Position numbers and translations under genes: made by a program. 64,000 nt of DNA from Martelella lutilitoris (GTDB lineage Bacteria > Pseudomonadota > Alphaproteobacteria > Rhizobiales > Rhizobiaceae). Shown here piece by piece: positions 1 through 31,308 of the stretch (positions are counted from its first letter, which is position 1; every line of letters starts with the position of its first letter). The notes below the pieces were generated by a model that did no database searches, was not told where the DNA came from, and worked only from the letters and a program-made list of their open reading frames with translations. The stretch covers positions 3,988,001 through 4,052,000 of the forward strand of contig NZ_CP066786.1 of the NCBI RefSeq assembly GCF_016598595.1, in the 5' to 3' direction.

Positions 1-54
1 GATGGCAACGAGCCGGACCCTTGAACCTGATCCGGGTCATTCCGGCGTAGGAAC
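1..54 (+). promoter_or_regulatory. TPP riboswitch (THI element), 3' part only
   Basis: The window opens inside a thiamine pyrophosphate riboswitch. The conserved 3' segment ACCCTTGAACCTGATCC is followed by GGGTCATTCCGGCGTAGGAA, which matches the second half of the THI element (the P4/P5 arm and the return strand to P1). The 5' half with the CTGAGA core lies outside the window. thiE and TRAP transporter genes follow on the same strand, so TPP should repress them. The assignment rests on the conserved string and on thiE being downstream. Confidence 0.85.
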
Positions 55-123
55 GGAAAAATCGGCTATTCCCCCTTGTTTTCGCTTCCGCGCCGGTCTC
101 CGCAATACCATGGAGGTCGTCAT

Positions 124-180
124 ATGTCGTTGGAATTTCGCCGCAGCCGCCTTTTGCAGGCGGGTGAGACGCAGCCATGA
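124..180 (+). CDS. possible 18-codon leader ORF between riboswitch and thiE
   Basis: An ATG at 124 opens an 18-codon frame (MSLEFRRSRLLQAGETQP). Its TGA at 178-180 overlaps the thiE ATG at 177-179 in an ATGA arrangement. A textbook Shine-Dalgarno sequence, GGAGG at 112-116, sits 7 bases before this ATG, whereas thiE has no comparable site directly before its own start. This suggests that ribosomes load on the short frame and reach thiE by translational coupling, so the riboswitch could act on the leader's ribosome site. Its short length means it could be a chance frame; coding status is inferred only from the strong site and the overlap. Confidence 0.35.
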   Translation: MSLEFRRSRLLQAGETQP

Positions 181-839
181 GGACGGTCGATTATCGCCTG
201 AACGCCCTGGTCGATGCCGGGCTGGTCGAGACCGCGCCGCTTGCCGAACTGGCGCGGCATGCCGCCGAAAACGGCGCGACCTTGATCCAGTATCGCGACA
301 AATACGCCAAGACCCGCCAGATGATCGAACGGGCCGTGGAAATTCGCAAGGCGCTTGAGCCGACTGGCGTTCCGCTGGTGGTCAATGACCGGGTCGACGT
401 CGCGCTCGCGGCAGAAGCCGCCGGCGTCCATCTCGGCGCAGACGACATGGAACCGGAAACGGCGCGACGGCTGCTCGGGACGGACGCCATTATCGGCCTG
501 ACCGTCAAGAATGCGTCCGACGGCGCGCGGGCGGCAGCGGCTCCGGTTGACTATGCCTGTATCGGCGGCGTGTTTCATACGCTCTCCAAGATCAACTCCG
601 ACCCGCCGGTGGGCCTTGAGGGGTTTCGCGCGCTGCGCCGCGGCCTGAAGAAGGCGAGGCCGGACCTGCCGGTCGGCGCGATCGCCGGAATCAAGCTCGA
701 ACACGTGCCCGAGCTGATCGCCGACGGGGCCGACGGCGTTGCCGTGATCTCTGCAATCTTCCATGCGCCCGATGTGACGAAGGCGACCCGCGACTTCCGC
801 CGGGCCGTCGACGCGGCGATCGCGATCCGGGCGCGATGA
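177..839 (+). CDS. thiE: Thiamine-phosphate synthase ThiE
   Basis: ThiE joins hydroxymethylpyrimidine diphosphate to (carboxy)thiazole phosphate to give thiamine phosphate in the cytoplasm. The 220-residue protein is one TIM barrel of normal family length. Recognisable parts are QYRDK at 38-42, the VVND pair at 68-71 and HLGADD at 85-90 (diphosphate and metal binding), GGVFHTLSK at 130-138 (a divergent form of the usual GPIFPTxTK loop), and GADGVAVIS at 184-192 near the phosphate site. The start overlaps an upstream short frame. Its own stop at 837-839 overlaps the start of the TRAP permease at 836, so the two are coupled. A TPP riboswitch lies upstream. No thiC, thiG or kinase is visible nearby, so here ThiE is tied to an importer and not to de novo synthesis. 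Confidence 0.9.
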   Translation: MRTVDYRLNALVDAGLVETAPLAELARHAAENGATLIQYRDKYAKTRQMIERAVEIRKALEPTGVPLVVNDRVDVALAAEAAGVHLGADDMEPETARRLLGTDAIIGLTVKNASDGARAAAAPVDYACIGGVFHTLSKINSDPPVGLEGFRALRRGLKKARPDLPVGAIAGIKLEHVPELIADGADGVAVISAIFHAPDVTKATRDFRRAVDAAIAIRAR

Positions 840-2629
840 CATCGGCTGCAATCGAGCGCGTGGCCGGCCGCCTTGCGGACAGGCTTCAGACGACGCTTTC
901 GATGATCGCGGGCGTCGTTCTGGCGCTGATGCTCGCGCTCGTCCTCCTCAGCGTCGTGCTCCGCTATGTCTTCCGGACCGGGCTGATCGGCACCGAGGAG
1001 CTCGGCATCTGGCTGAATGTGGCGCTGGTCTTTCTTGCCGCGCCGCTTGCCATGACCGGCCCGCTCGCCATGCGGCTTGAACTCCCCTTTTCAAGGCGGG
1101 CGGAATTGCCTGCCCGCATCATCGCCGACGCAGTCAGCCTCATCGCTGCCCTTGTGCTCGCCCTTGGCAGCGCTCGCGTCGCAACGCTGATCGGGGGCAC
1201 CTCGCCGACCCTCGGCCTGCCCGAATGGGTGCGCTTTGCCGTCACCGGCACGGGCGGCGCGCTGATCGCCGCGACCCTTGCCCTCAGGCGCATCAGCGAA
1301 CGGCGGTTCCTGTCGCTTGCGGTTTCTGCCGGCCTGGCCGGCCTCATCTCCCTCGCATGCCTGCGTTTCAATCTGGCAACGGCCGTTCCGCCGAGCGCCG
1401 CGATTGCGCTTTTCGCCGCCATCGGCCTGATCGCGGCTGCCCCGCTTGCCCATGCCTTCCTCGCCGCGGCCCTTGTCGCCATGCCCTTCGGCGGCAGTCT
1501 GGCGCCGGAAACGATGGTGACGACGGCGGTTTCCGGCATGTCGCATTTCCTGCTTCTGGCGATCCCCTTCTTTCTCTTGACGGGAGCGGCCCTTTCGGCC
1601 TCCGGCGCGGCCGCGCATCTTGTCGCCTTCGCAGCATCGCTTGTCGGCCACCGGCGCGGTGGCCTGGCGCAGACGGTACTCGCCACCGGCGCGCTGTTTT
1701 CCGGCGCGTCCGGTTCGTCGGTTGCCAATGCGGTGTTTTCAGCCACAACCTTCCAGCCCGAACTGGTGCGTCACGGCTACCCGCCGGCCCGCGCAGGGGC
1801 GATCATCGCCGCCTCTTCGGTGCTCGACAATGTGATCCCGCCGTCAATCGCCTTTCTCATTCTTGCGGCCGCGACCGACCTCTCGGTCGGCAAGCTGCTT
1901 GTCGGCGGGCTCGCCGCCGGCCTTGTCATGGCGGCGAGCCTTGCCGTCGCCATTCACCTGACGACACGCGACCGGCCGGGCAGCACGCGCGCGACCCCGG
2001 CTGAGCGAAAGAAGGCTTTCCTCGCTGCCGTCCCGGCCTTCGGGCTCGGCGTCATCGTCGTCTTCGGCATCCGCATCGGCATCGTCACCACCACGGAAGC
2101 GGCCGCGCTTGCCGCCGCCTATACGCTTGCGCTTGCGGCCTTCGCGAAAACGCGCCTCACGACACTATTCTCGGTGTTCCGGCAGTCGGCTACGGAAGCA
2201 GCCGCCATCGGCCTCCTGATCGGCGCAGCCGGGCCGTTTGCCTTCCAGCTCGCCGTCGACGGGGTCGCCGGCATGCTGTCTTCGGCGGCCGGCGTGCTTG
2301 GCGGTTCGCCCGCAGCGATCCTCGCCTTTTGCGTGGCCGTGCTGCTTCTCGCGGGCCTCTTTCTCGATATCGGAGCGGCGATCCTGCTTTTCGGCCCGCT
2401 TCTGCTGCCGCTTGCCACAGATGCCGGGCTCAACCCGATCGCCTTCGGCGTCATCACCGTCACCACGCTGATGATCGGCGGACTGACGCCGCCCGTCGGC
2501 ATGCTGGTGCTGGTGGTCGGCGGCGTCGCCAAAATTCCGGCAGCATCGCTGTTTCGCACGACGCTGCCCTATCTGGCCGCACTGCTTGCGGCAGTCGCGC
2601 TCTTCTGCGCTTTCACCCTTCTGATCTGA
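836..2629 (+). CDS. TRAP transporter, fused small and large permease subunits (DctQM type)
   Basis: A membrane protein of 597 residues that combines the two TRAP permease subunits. Residues about 15-160 form the four-helix DctQ-like part. Residues about 175-597 form the multi-helix DctM-like translocation channel, with the typical runs PFFLLTGAALSASG, GASGSSVANA and NVIPPSIAFLILA. Such proteins use the sodium gradient to import a ligand delivered by a DctP-type periplasmic protein, encoded directly downstream. The ATG overlaps the thiE stop, so uptake and thiamine phosphate synthesis are co-translated. TRAP ligands are usually carboxylates; with thiE and a TPP riboswitch the cargo is probably a thiamine precursor (inference). 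Confidence 0.88.
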   Translation: MTSAAIERVAGRLADRLQTTLSMIAGVVLALMLALVLLSVVLRYVFRTGLIGTEELGIWLNVALVFLAAPLAMTGPLAMRLELPFSRRAELPARIIADAVSLIAALVLALGSARVATLIGGTSPTLGLPEWVRFAVTGTGGALIAATLALRRISERRFLSLAVSAGLAGLISLACLRFNLATAVPPSAAIALFAAIGLIAAAPLAHAFLAAALVAMPFGGSLAPETMVTTAVSGMSHFLLLAIPFFLLTGAALSASGAAAHLVAFAASLVGHRRGGLAQTVLATGALFSGASGSSVANAVFSATTFQPELVRHGYPPARAGAIIAASSVLDNVIPPSIAFLILAAATDLSVGKLLVGGLAAGLVMAASLAVAIHLTTRDRPGSTRATPAERKKAFLAAVPAFGLGVIVVFGIRIGIVTTTEAAALAAAYTLALAAFAKTRLTTLFSVFRQSATEAAAIGLLIGAAGPFAFQLAVDGVAGMLSSAAGVLGGSPAAILAFCVAVLLLAGLFLDIGAAILLFGPLLLPLATDAGLNPIAFGVITVTTLMIGGLTPPVGMLVLVVGGVAKIPAASLFRTTLPYLAALLAAVALFCAFTLLI

Positions 2630-2640
2630 GAGGAAACATC

Positions 2641-3630
2641 ATGAGAACCCTCAATCGCCGCACCCTTCTGAAGGCCGGAACGCTGGCCGTCCTTTCGACC
2701 CCCTATCTCGCCCGCCCCGCCTTCGCCCAGACCACGATAACGGTCGCTTCGCTGCTCGGAGAGGACAAGCCGGAGACCAAGATCTGGCGCTTCTTTGCCG
2801 AGAAGGCCGAGGAACGACTTCCCGGCCGCTTCCGCTTCAATATCGTCACCAATGGCGCGCTCGGCGGCGAAAAACAGGTGGCCGACAGCATCCGCCTCGG
2901 CGCGGTGCAGGCGAGCCTGTCGACCGTTTCGGCACTTTCGTCCTGGGTTCCGGAGCTGCAGCTTCTCGACCTGCCCTTCCTGTTCCGCAGTCCGGAGCAC
3001 CTCCGGCGCGTGGTCACTGGGCCGGTCGGCGACAATCTGAAGGAGCGGCTCGCCGGCGAGCGCTTCATCGTCGGCGGTTTCATCGATTACGGCGCCCGCC
3101 ACCTCCTGACCAGAACGCCGGTGACACGGCCGGAGCAACTCGAGGGCGTCACCATCCGCGTTATCAACAGTCCGCTTCATACCGGGCTCTGGAGCGCCTT
3201 CGGGGCGGTGCCCGTCGGCATCCCGATCACCGAGACCTACAATGCGCTGGCAACGGGCGTGGCGGAAGCGATGGACCTGACGAAATCCGCCTATGCCGGG
3301 TTCAAGCTCTACGAGGTCGTGCCGTGCCTGACGGAGACCGGTCACATCCGCGCCTCCGGCGTGATCTATTTCTCCGAAGGTTTCTGGAACGGCCTTGATC
3401 CCGAAACGCAAGGCCTGCTGATGGAGATATCGGCAGAGGCCGCCCTCTATTTCAACGCGCTGATCGTGGAGGACGAGACGGCGGCGATGGAAACCGCGCG
3501 TCAAAACGGCGGCGAAGTGTTCCAGCCCGAGGACATGGACGCGTGGCGGTCCGGCGCCAGGGGTGTATGGGCCGAGTTCGCGCCGGTCGTCGGCGGCATG
3601 GAGCGGATCGAGATGATCGAAAACGGCTGA
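2641..3630 (+). CDS. TRAP transporter periplasmic substrate-binding protein (DctP family)
   Basis: A 329-residue binding protein with a twin-arginine signal: RRTLLK at 6-11, then a hydrophobic stretch and an AFA/Q cleavage site near residue 29. The mature part shows the DctP pattern, including LQLLDLPFLFRSPEH at 107-120 and IRVINSP at 172-178. In characterised family members the arginine of this last motif (here R173) clamps a ligand carboxylate. It follows the permease by 11 bases, with a GAGAGGAAA ribosome site. Export through Tat suggests folding before transport. Ligand unknown; the context of a TPP riboswitch and thiE suggests a carboxylated thiazole or pyrimidine precursor. Confidence 0.88.
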   Translation: MRTLNRRTLLKAGTLAVLSTPYLARPAFAQTTITVASLLGEDKPETKIWRFFAEKAEERLPGRFRFNIVTNGALGGEKQVADSIRLGAVQASLSTVSALSSWVPELQLLDLPFLFRSPEHLRRVVTGPVGDNLKERLAGERFIVGGFIDYGARHLLTRTPVTRPEQLEGVTIRVINSPLHTGLWSAFGAVPVGIPITETYNALATGVAEAMDLTKSAYAGFKLYEVVPCLTETGHIRASGVIYFSEGFWNGLDPETQGLLMEISAEAALYFNALIVEDETAAMETARQNGGEVFQPEDMDAWRSGARGVWAEFAPVVGGMERIEMIENG

Positions 3631-27754: not shown

Positions 27755-27837
27755 CATACCTAGTCACTTTCGCCGACTATTTCAAATAGGCCGGAGCCCT
27801 TGAATTCGCGGCCCGGCCGCGATAGGTGTCGGAAAGC

Positions 27838-27937
27838 TCTAACGGGGTGCGGAACGCTGATCCTAGCGTCAACCGCTGAGAGGTACGAAGACCAACCCGA
27901 GGAACCTGATCCGGTTAAGACCGGCGGAGGGATTAGA
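27838..27937 (+). promoter_or_regulatory. TPP riboswitch (THI element) of thiBPQ
   Basis: A complete THI element. P1 pairs TCTAA (27838-27842) with TTAGA (27933-27937). The pyrimidine-sensing core CTGAGAG is at 27876-27882 and the second conserved core GAACCTGATCC at 27902-27912. It directly precedes thiB. Downstream, GACGCC at 27952-27957 can pair with GGCGTC at 27991-27996, next to the thiB start codon. This suggests that TPP binding shuts translation initiation. Confidence 0.93.
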
Positions 27938-27996
27938 CGCGTGAACCAGAAGACGCCCTTTTCCCTTATTGATTGCGACAGCACGAAGGAGGCGTC

Positions 27997-29010
27997 ATGT
28001 CAGCCCACCATATGAAAATCGCGATTGCGGCACTGGCATTCGGTGCAGCCGGCAGCGCCCATGCCCAGGATGGCAAGGTGCTGACCGTCTATACCTATGA
28101 AAGCTTCAACACGGAATGGGGCCCGGGGCCGCTGGTAAAGGACGCCTTCGAGGCCCAATGCGGCTGCACCGTCAAATTCGTCGGCGCGGAAGACGGCGTC
28201 GCGCTGTTGAACCGGCTGAAGCTCGAGGGCCGCACGAGCCCGGCCGATATCGTGCTCGGCCTCGACAACAACCTGATCCACGAGGCGAAGGAGACGGGAC
28301 TTTTTGCCGCATCCGGGGTCTCGACCGAAAACCTCGCCATTCCCGGCGGCTTTGACGACGATATTTTCGTGCCCTTCGACTACGGCTATTTCGACATCGT
28401 TTACGACAGCGAGAGTATCGAAACCCCGCCGACAACGCTCGATGACCTCGTCAATGGACCGAGCGACGAAAAAATCGTCATCGAGGATCCGCGCACCTCC
28501 ACACCGGGGCTTGGCATGCTGTTGTGGATGAAGGCAGTCTACGGCGACGAGGCGGCGGCGAAGTGGGAGACGCTTTCAAAGCGCATTCTGACGGTCGCGC
28601 CCGGCTGGTCCGAGGCCTACGGTCTCTTCACCAGCGGCGAGGCGCCGATGGTGCTGTCCTACACCACCTCGCCCGCCTATCACCAGATTGCCGAGGAGAC
28701 CGACCGCTACAAGGCGGCCGATATCGAAGACGGGCTCTATGTCCAGATCGAGGTCGCTGGCATGACGGAGATGGCCGAGGACCCGGCGCTGGCAAAGTCC
28801 TTCCTCGAATTTGTCCTGACGCCCGGCTTTCAGGACGCGATCCCGACGCATAACTGGATGATGCCCGTGGCGCAGACATCCGACCCCCTGCCCGCGGCAT
28901 TCCAGAACGCGGTCATGCCGGACAAGACCCTGCAGTTCGCCCCCGACGTGGTGGCCGAAAACCGTCAGGCCTGGATCGATGAGTGGCTGAACGCCATGAG
29001 CGCGCGGTGA
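27997..29010 (+). CDS. thiB: Thiamine ABC transporter substrate-binding protein
   Basis: A 337-residue periplasmic protein with a signal peptide ([19 protein letters not shown], cleavage after AHA). The mature part begins [17 protein letters not shown], and [23 protein letters not shown] and [15 protein letters not shown] correspond to the thiamine pocket region of TbpA/ThiB. It binds thiamine, and in E. coli also its phosphates, and passes it to ThiP. AAGGAGG at 27986-27992 precedes the ATG at 27997; the ATG at 28012 is an alternative. It is the first gene of the riboswitch-controlled thiBPQ operon. Confidence 0.9.
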
Positions 29011-29023
29011 CGGGACCGTAACC

Positions 29024-30658
29024 GTGTATCTGACAGGGGCGGAGTTCCGCCGCAGCCTTTCCGCCGGCCTTGTCGCCCTTCTCGCCGTCCTCGGCTTCAT
29101 CGCCGTGGCAGTCGCGTCGCTTGCCGGTTTCGGACGGCTTGCCGATGCGGCGGCGGTCCTCAACGAGCCCTATGTCTGGCGCATCCTGCGCTTCACGCTC
29201 TATCAGGCTTGCCTGTCAACGCTGATCTCCGTCGCTCTGGCCATCCCCGTAGCGCTTGCCATGGCAAGGCGTCCGCAGTTTCCCGGTCGCATCTGGATCG
29301 TCCGGCTCATGGCCGTGCCGCTCGGGCTTCCGGTGCTGATCGGGGCGCTCGGCATTATCGGCATCTGGGGACGACAGGGCCTGTTCAACGATATGCTGGA
29401 TCTGGCCGCGCTCGGTCGCCCGCTGCAGATCTATGGCCTGCAGGGCATTCTGATCGCCCATGTCTATTTCAACCTGCCGCTTGCCGCCCGCCTCATTCTG
29501 GCGGGGCTTGAACGCGTGCCGCAGGAATATTTCAAGACGGCAGCGATGCTCGCCATGCCGCAGCGCAGCGTGTTCCGCCTGATCGAATGGCCGGTGATCG
29601 CGCCGCTGATCGCGGGCGTGGCCGGCCTTATCTTCATGCTCTGCGCCACCTCGTTCACGCTGGTGCTGATCCTTGGCGGCGGGCCGGCGGCGACCACGAT
29701 CGAGGTCGCGATCTACCAGGCGCTGCGGTTTGATTTCAATCCCGCCCGCGCCGTCGCTCTTTCCGGCCTGCAGATCGTGCTGACAGCGCTGGTCCTTGCT
29801 GCACTTGCCTTCCTGCCGCGGGCGGGCGATCCGGGAACAAGCGCCAGCAGCGAGGCCGGCCGCCGCCCCGATGCGGACCATCGGCTGTCGCGCGGCTTCG
29901 ATTTCGCGCTGATCGCGCTTTTCACGCTTTGGCTTATCCTGCCGCTCGCCGTCATCGTGGTAAAGGGCGCGGGCGCCGATCTGATCGGTTTGCTCGTCGA
30001 ACCCGTCTTCCTCAGAGCGACGGCGACCAGCCTCGCCATTGCCCTGTCGGCGGCGCTGGCCGCGCTTGCCGTGGCGCTTTCCTTTATTGCCGCCATCGGA
30101 GCGATCCGGACCTTGAGGGCACCCGAACCCTTTTATCGCGGCAGCGCCGGCGCCATGTCGGCCATGGGCTCGCTTGTGCTTCTGGTGCCGCCGATCGTGC
30201 TGGGCACCGGCTGGTTTCTGCTATTGCGCCCCTTCGGCCTCACCGATACGGCAGCGCCGGCAATCGTCGCCGCGATCAACGCGCTGATGGCGCTGCCCTT
30301 CGTGCTGCGCGTGCTGCAGCCGGCCTTCGCCGTCCATCGGTCCCGCACCGCCCGACTTGCCGCAAGCCTCGGGCTTTCCGGCCTTGCCCGCTTGCGGATC
30401 GTTGACTGGCCGGGTCTGAGGAGACCCGTGCTGACGGCACTGGCCTTTGCCATGGCGCTGTCGCTCGGCGATCTGGGCGCGGTTGCCCTTTTCGGCGGCG
30501 ATCAGCTGACCACCCTGCCCTGGCTGCTCTACAGCCGGCTCGGCAGTTATCGTACCGACGATGCCAACGGGCTGGCGCTGATCCTGGGCGCGCTTTGCCT
30601 CGTGCTGATGATCGCCGGCACGCGCGCGCCCCGAAACGCTGGAAGAGGACAGACGTGA
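29024..30658 (+). CDS. thiP: Thiamine ABC transporter permease
   Basis: A 544-residue permease built from two fused halves of about six helices each, as is normal for ThiP. Each half has an EAA-type coupling loop: [20 protein letters not shown] in the first, [20 protein letters not shown] in the second. The start is GTG at 29024, 13 bases after the thiB stop, with a weak ribosome site, so translation may be coupled to thiB. The stop overlaps the GTG of thiQ. Confidence 0.9.
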
Positions 30659-31308
30659 CGCAATCTCCCTCAATCGTTCTGGACTCCGCGGCTCTTGCCC
30701 TCGGCGACAAGAATTTCCGCTTCAGCGGCGAAATCGCCGGCGGGCGGGTGACGGCGGTGACCGGCCGCTCCGGCTCCGGCAAGACCACGCTTTTGAACCT
30801 GATCGCCGGCTTTGAAGAACCCGACAGCGGGCGCGTCATCATCGGCGGCGCGGCGATGAATGGCCTGCATGTGGCAAAGCGTCCGGTCACGGTCGTGTTT
30901 CAGGAAAACAATCTCTTTGCCCATCTCGATATCTTCACCAATACCGGCCTTGGGCTGAATGCGCGCCTCAGGCTTGATCGAAACGACAGGCAAAAGATCA
31001 GTCATGCCCTTGCCCGCGTCGGCCTTGAAGGCTTTGAACGCCGCATGCCCGCCTCGCTTTCCGGCGGGGAGCGCCAGCGCGCCGCCTTTGCCCGCGCGCT
31101 GGTGCGCAATCGCCCGGTTCTTCTGCTCGACGAGCCCTTTGCCGCGCTCGACCCGGAGATGCGCGGGGAAATGGGCGCGCTCCTGCTTGAACTGCACGCG
31201 GAAACCGGCAATACCGTGATGATCGTCTCGCACGAGCCCGGCGAGGTCGAAGAGATCGCCGATCACCGCCTTGTCATCGAGAATGAGGCGATTTCGATGC
31301 GCTATTGA
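30655..31308 (+). CDS. thiQ: Thiamine ABC transporter ATP-binding protein
   Basis: A 217-residue ATPase of the short ThiQ type. It has Walker [10 protein letters not shown] at 37-45, a Q-loop [17 protein letters not shown] with the ENNLFAHL block typical of ThiQ, signature LSGGERQR and Walker [14 protein letters not shown]. It starts at GTG 30655, overlapping the thiP stop (GTGA), with GGAAGAGG upstream. It energises thiamine import through ThiP. Confidence 0.9.

Follow-up and report, generated by a model that had tools for sequence, protein, structure and literature searches.

A TPP riboswitch-led thiE-TRAP operon in Martelella lutilitoris as a candidate salvage unit for the thiazole moiety of thiamin

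The thiE-TRAP locus and the thiamin regulon of its genome

The stretch of DNA analysed here (the window; 64,000 nucleotides, G000:C1:3988001-4052000) is part of contig NZ_CP066786.1 of Martelella lutilitoris, whose genome measures 4.79 Mb and is 99.97% complete. It begins inside a thiamin pyrophosphate (TPP) riboswitch, which is followed by thiE, by a fused permease gene (DctQ and DctM; QM below) of the tripartite ATP-independent periplasmic (TRAP) transporter class, and by the gene for the solute-binding protein DctP (Table 1). This order, proposed by the initial annotation together with the 4-base overlap (ATGA) between thiE and the permease gene, is confirmed by Rfam and profile matches. 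A short leader open reading frame (ORF) precedes thiE, its stop overlapping the thiE start likewise as ATGA, and the DctP gene starts 11 bases past the permease gene. The initial annotation had held that the lack of a complete riboswitch upstream would speak against its proposal; the full aptamer is there, at G000:C1:3987968-3988070, ending at window position 70, and scores 74.3 bits, the gathering score being 54.3. The window alone contains its 3′ two thirds at 1-70, which score 41 bits and are flagged as 5′-cut.

The DctQ, DctM and DctP domains all score above the cut-offs of PF04290, PF06808 and PF03480, which assigns the transporter to the TRAP class. In Pfam and TIGR profile searches, the permease and binding protein of the thiE operon match TRAP families exclusively, and no ATP-binding cassette (ABC), energy-coupling factor (ECF), nucleobase cation symporter-1 (NCS1), PnuC-like or sodium symporter domain, as in the known TPP-regulated transporter families, was found in that operon. 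The N-terminus of DctP, MRTLNRRTLLKAG, resembles a twin-arginine translocation (Tat) signal as judged by eye, and the protein is 96% identical to DctP of Martelella sp. AD-3.

Table 1. Features of the window related to thiamin, with positions counted from its first base
Feature	Position	Strand	Basis and remarks
TPP riboswitch aptamer, 3′ part	1..70	+	Rfam RF00059; 5′ end 33 bases before window base 1
Leader ORF, 18 codons, MSLEFRRSRLLQAGETQP	124..180	+	GGAGG upstream; read from sequence, predicted product
thiE, thiamine-phosphate synthase, copy A	177..839	+	TIGR00693 178.2 bits (cut-off 145.1), PF02581
Fused TRAP permease DctQ + DctM, 597 aa	836..2629	+	PF04290, PF06808 above cut-off; TIGR00786 271.7 vs 268.45
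TRAP solute-binding protein DctP, twin-arginine N-terminus	2641..3630	+	PF03480 above cut-off
Second TPP riboswitch of the window, same regulon	27833..27949	+	RF00059 61.9 bits
thiB, thiP, thiQ (thiamin ABC importer), after the second switch	27973..31308	+	Start codons unrefined

The genome holds five TPP switches, each over the Rfam gathering score, and the genes behind them are thiE with the TRAP genes, thiX-thiY, thiM-thiD, thiC with a second thiE, and thiBPQ, respectively. The labels ThiX-like permease and ThiY-like binding protein follow from gene order and resemblance, and the thiE behind thiC (copy B) was read by eye and gives a ~40% alignment with thiE of the copy A type. Of the profiles for thiBPQ, TIGR01276 and TIGR01253 match above cut-off and TIGR01277 below it (206.0 vs 245.05). 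ThiC, ThiM, ThiD and two ThiE are present in this genome. With E 0.001 as the limit, ThiG is found in 14 of 14 control genomes (8 of the 14 at 1e-30) and has no match here. A real Thi4 was not seen in this genome, the sole one searched for it; the 14 hits, some of them over cut-off, each cover 36-55 residues, the size of the flavin adenine dinucleotide (FAD) motif, inside longer frames. Since thiBPQ and thiXY stand behind TPP switches of their own, candidate importers for intact thiamin and for the pyrimidine are in place, and hydroxymethylpyrimidine itself can be made through ThiC. The thiazole alone should therefore be obtainable only by uptake or by thiamin breakdown, and the organism is predicted to be a thiazole auxotroph.

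The leader ORF recurs, with 18-19 codons, between the TPP aptamer and thiE in all five loci of the Martelella type (the window, L011, L012, L013, L023). Its MSLEFRR-like start and the ATGA overlap are kept in all five and its middle is variable; an origin as a remnant of thiX or thiM was rejected by eye. A hairpin enclosing the Shine-Dalgarno sequence is part of the minimum-energy fold in three of four Martelella leaders, and the leaders fold no better than shuffled sequences (z 0.2 to 1.7). In L006 (11037-11951), an open frame that by eye looks like a hydrolase of the HAD family directly precedes the riboswitch, on the strand of the latter.

TRAP genes in TPP-led operons of related bacteria

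The thiamin link of the TRAP genes, suggested by the initial annotation from the window, is supported by comparative genomics. Genome scans for homologues returned at least 32 loci in Hyphomicrobiales in which the DctP frame is open and belongs to an operon headed by a TPP riboswitch; at 31 of them the adjoining permease frame is open as well. They fall into four layouts, and the linkage is beyond chance. The switches of 19 of the 32 loci were confirmed by Rfam, four of them on a renewed retrieval of the contig, and those of 13 by pattern only. A first TPP pattern missed two of the five known switches of the genome, and a looser, unvalidated pattern was then used.

Most of these loci come from a scan that took a single genome for each species and whose counts rest on 80 listed out of 190 relatives: the TRAP genes lie inside a TPP-led operon in 23 and are unlinked in 57, of which 11 were checked with Rfam and the remainder by pattern. 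The aptamer was found in the flank by pattern in 21 of the 23; at L069 and L075 the switch lies further upstream and was found with Rfam. With the window included, the layouts are TPP-thiX-thiY-thiM-thiE-thiD-QM-P (14 loci), TPP-thiE-QM-P (5), TPP-thiX-thiY-QM-P (4) and TPP-QM-P (1), where P is the DctP gene. An even sample of the family (199 genomes; it overlooks any carrier whose DctP lies past E 1e-95) gave 21 homologues, 10 of them TPP-linked and distributed over eight genera, namely the one in the window's genome, four from the species scan and five new ones (L132, L135, L136, L137, L139). Complete plasmids of Rhizobium rhizoryzae, Rhizobium sp. SSA_523 and Allorhizobium pseudoryzae add three loci. 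In a class-wide sample of 385 genomes, a close homologue was found in six, including the window's genome, and the six loci of the other five (39-51% identity) showed no TPP link.

At L136 the TRAP genes follow the switch with no thi gene between, and the same is true of L039, so that in two of the 32 loci the TRAP genes stand alone directly behind the switch and are no passenger of thi genes there; the idea that they are merely read through from thiE was rejected for the same reason. At L139 the switch, thiXY-thiMED, a TenA-like gene (by eye) and an open DctP frame share one strand, and the permease gene is on the opposite strand and runs off the stretch; the other 31 loci have both frames open. 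A TPP-led operon on Ensifer canadensis pT173e (L156) was left out of the 32, as its permease looks broken. TRAP-free TPP-thiXY-thiMED operons also exist, in all three genomes examined for them (G024, G027 and G042, two of the Agrobacterium type and one Sinorhizobium, all with unlinked TRAP genes), which argues that carriage of the TRAP genes is not fixed by the operon.

Two other features of these operons were noted. No ATPase gene was noticed beside the ThiX- and ThiY-like genes at L007 4243-5970 and in the thiXY-thiMED operons, and none was searched for; a RibXY system lacking an ATPase is reported in a section of a riboswitch-regulon survey (PMC3766115). In the ThiM of the operon type (L014 2019-2756 and orthologues), a stretch of about 30 positions of the profile (about 121-152) has no match, and its identity to the ThiM encoded in the window's genome is 33-37%.

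On a tree of DctP sequences, the TPP-linked proteins cluster, with three changes of linkage where 21 are expected after shuffling. Two TPP-linked proteins (L034 and L075) are placed among the unlinked ones, and from these positions either the thiamin role would have been gained more than once or the linked and unlinked groups would share a ligand class. With an outgroup added, the outgroup branch is too long for rooting. The tree also places “Bacillus subtilis SK6B4” (L049) inside Pseudochrobactrum and “Marinicella sp. W31” (L011) inside Martelella; both entries are probably mislabelled or contaminated.

ThiG, ThiC and ThiM in carrier genomes

Whole genomes were available for 29 of the 32 linked loci. 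A full-length ThiG is encoded in only two of these carriers (G006 and G023) and is lacking in 27, where short hits of 45-65 residues in four genomes (G010, G013, G015 and G019; E 1e-5 to 1e-3) were scored as absent, although three of these pass the Pfam cut-off. ThiM matches in all 29, in two pieces in G001. ThiC is covered over most of its length in eight carriers and in pieces in a ninth (G007). The number of carriers with ThiC and no ThiG is thus six out of 29, the genome of the window being one of them; ThiG without ThiC occurs in none, and both together in two.

The lack of ThiG is associated with the TPP-linked form of the transporter. Full ThiG was found in 2 of 24 genomes with a linked TRAP vs 12 of 27 with an unlinked one (p = 0.005), and in the family sample, where 91 of 199 genomes have ThiG, in none of the 10 TPP-TRAP carriers vs 91 of 189 others (p = 0.002); these are Fisher tests that ignore kinship, on genome samples that include drafts. 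Within one genus, a carrier (G209) lacks ThiG and a non-carrier (G129) has ThiG but lacks ThiC and ThiM. In two ThiG-bearing Ensifer (G045 and the strain with pT173e), the thi operon ends in an apparently broken TRAP permease gene, for which a sequencing error is possible, and G045 retains a DctP remnant as well (L165). ThiG is thus present in 2 of 29 genomes with intact copies vs 2 of 2 with broken ones (p = 0.013, for a contrast picked after seeing the data). One genome scored as a non-carrier (G058) may, to judge by positions, carry the operon with a contig end running through it.

Candidate cargo and its meaning

Judged from sequence comparison, the TRAP transporter very probably takes part in thiamin-related import, and its cargo is probably, at moderate confidence, the thiazole moiety. 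Support for a thiazole-type cargo comes from the lack of a full ThiG, both in the window's genome and in 27 of 29 carriers, and from the apparently broken copies in the two ThiG-bearing Ensifer. On balance, we therefore favor reading the thiE-TRAP operon as a TPP-repressed salvage unit that imports the thiazole moiety of thiamin.

That the cargo is carboxythiazole (cHET) itself, a carboxylated thiazole precursor having been the cargo favored by the initial annotation, is a more tentative suggestion, somewhat short of an even chance. It is favored because TRAP ligands are acids and cHET is a carboxylated vitamer that is used at very low levels and is present in seawater. According to sections of PMC5899164, sub-picomolar cHET suffices for growth of a thiG mutant of E. 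coli, hydroxyethylthiazole (HET) being needed at far higher levels, algae use cHET at low levels, and Ostreococcus requires ThiM for its use; about 3-38 pM cHET is given for seawater in a passage of PMC12236431. A dedicated TPP-repressed TRAP importer of cHET, serving thiazole auxotrophs that obtain the other parts of thiamin by synthesis or salvage, is put forward here with the same, slightly less than even, odds.

The steps of such a unit can be outlined as follows. At low TPP, the riboswitch would free the ribosome site of the leader, and translation would run as a coupled chain from the leader ORF through thiE into the TRAP genes, so that ThiE and the importer are made together. DctP, presumably Tat-exported, would capture an anionic thiazole precursor in the periplasm and hand it to the QM permease for transport into the cell, where ThiM, encoded at another locus, would phosphorylate the thiazole and ThiE would join the thiazole phosphate to the pyrophosphate of hydroxymethylpyrimidine (HMP-PP).

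TRAP binding proteins typically grip the acid group of their ligand with a conserved arginine. R173 of DctP, which the initial annotation had placed at this site, is invariant in alignments of 37 and 25 rows and aligns with an arginine of the solved TRAP protein 4n15. Conserved arginines are common to close homologues without TPP control, and R173 alone is therefore uninformative on a thiazole ligand.

Several observations weigh against a thiazole importer. Among the 80 listed homologues, 57 showed no TPP switch in the flanks examined, and at 34 of these 57 loci full SsuA-like and SsuD-like genes precede the TRAP genes (a piece of SsuD only is retained at five more), which suggests that the TRAPs so linked take a sulfonate or another sulfur compound. 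Most TPP-linked DctPs have D149/R237 vs N149/W237 in the unlinked ones; as marks of a thiamin pocket, these residues were rejected, since TPP-linked proteins also carry N/W (L034, L075, L132, L135, L139) or H/F (L136). G006 and G023 combine ThiG with open TRAP frames. The salvage operon, marked by the operon-type ThiM, itself tracks ThiG loss (p = 0.004): ThiG occurs in 4 of 23 genomes with this ThiM and in 87 of the remaining 176. Among the 23, the contrast between genomes with the TRAP (ThiG in 0 of 9) and the rest (4 of 14) is not significant (p = 0.13). ThiG is absent from 108 of the 199 family genomes, 98 of which have no TPP-TRAP, and two genomes of the same genus with neither ThiG nor the TRAP both have TPP-thiM-thiE-thiD. 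For a coastal system, a section of PMC10881298 describes cHET as mostly below quantification and thiG-lacking populations as rare.

The order SsuA-like, SsuD-like, TRAP is also seen in Thioclava and Marinibacterium. The binding protein (SsuA-like) and the flavin monooxygenase (SsuD-like) recur as a unit with the TRAP transporter (for example L018, L153 and L154), perhaps a pathway for a sulfur compound, and the Thioclava version includes a gamma-glutamyltransferase. The sulfonate TRAP protein IseP (8t9t) is a distant relative of the DctP in the window (E 1.5e-28, 20% identity).

Among the alternatives, import of the pyrimidine half of thiamin, as an acidic derivative of hydroxymethylpyrimidine (HMP), or of intact thiamin or its phosphates, in place of the thiazole, survives best, and we regard it as unlikely. 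Full-length ThiC is missing from 21 of 29 carriers too (G007, with its pieces, among the 21), and thiXY and thiD are frequent in the operon, as such a cargo would lead one to expect. What tells against it is the asymmetry between ThiC and ThiG described above, which is never reversed. The window's genome also has other candidates for these roles in thiBPQ and thiXY, which stand behind separate TPP switches. In addition, the usual pyrimidine vitamers, HMP and its aminomethyl (AmMP) and formylaminomethyl (FAMP) counterparts, carry no acid group.

The SsuA/SsuD-linked majority of homologues might instead set the ligand throughout, the TRAP being an ordinary carrier of an organic acid or organosulfonate that rides in the operon. 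We consider this improbable, given the two loci where the TRAP stands alone behind the aptamer, the association across eight genera of the even family sample with all 10 carriers lacking ThiG, and the TRAP-free operons (3 of 3), by which carriage is not fixed. Least probable is the supply of a sulfur-containing acid that serves as a source of sulfur or goes into thiazole synthesis as a building block: sulfur-compound genes do adjoin unlinked homologues, but with a full ThiG lacking in 27 of 29 carriers and no real Thi4 seen in the window's genome, thiazole synthesis would be left without a known enzyme.

The proposed thiazole salvage unit has relatives on two sides. SiaPQM, TauKLM, IseKLM and YiaMNO are likewise TRAP systems with a fused or separate QM permease and a DctP, and solved TRAP proteins have 18-28% identity to the DctP in the window among the 50 listed. 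Unlike in these systems, a TPP riboswitch lies upstream here, and the linkage is to thiE or thiMED in place of sugar-acid or sulfonate genes. TPP control (in most), a salvage role and thi linkage are shared with ThiBPQ, ThiXYZ, YkoEDC, ThiT, CytX, PnuT, ThiV, ThiW and Omr1, none of which is known to be a TRAP transporter. ThiW, an ECF-type protein, has a published prediction as a thiazole transporter. No cHET importer is known to have been established by experiment. Karunakaran and colleagues reportedly found in 2006 that thiMED behind a thi box in Rhizobium leguminosarum 3841 makes thiamin from supplied HMP and thiazole; compared with that operon, those described here add a TRAP importer or shrink to thiE and the TRAP genes.

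In the literature, E. coli and picoeukaryotes likewise draw on cHET as an external precursor of vitamin B1, with no importer named in the sections of PMC5899164 drawn on; here, in other bacteria, there is a candidate importer. The transporter lists in parts of two vitamer papers assign none to thiazole (PMC10881298, PMC12236431), and in the main text of the riboswitch-regulon survey “TRAP” occurs once and denotes the attenuation protein (PMC3766115). Among open-licence papers, a scope that leaves most subscription papers outside, no title or opening of an abstract among those listed ties TRAP transporters to thiamin or a TPP switch.

Bacterial uptake of the thiazole half of vitamin B1 is poorly known, and the TPP-linked DctP is a concrete, purifiable binding protein with which to approach it. 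If the proposed role is true, TRAP transporters would extend to vitamin salvage, the family would include a transporter for a vitamin precursor and bacteria would have an uptake system for cHET, and the TPP-linked genes would provide a genome marker for thiazole consumers in Rhizobiaceae and their kin.

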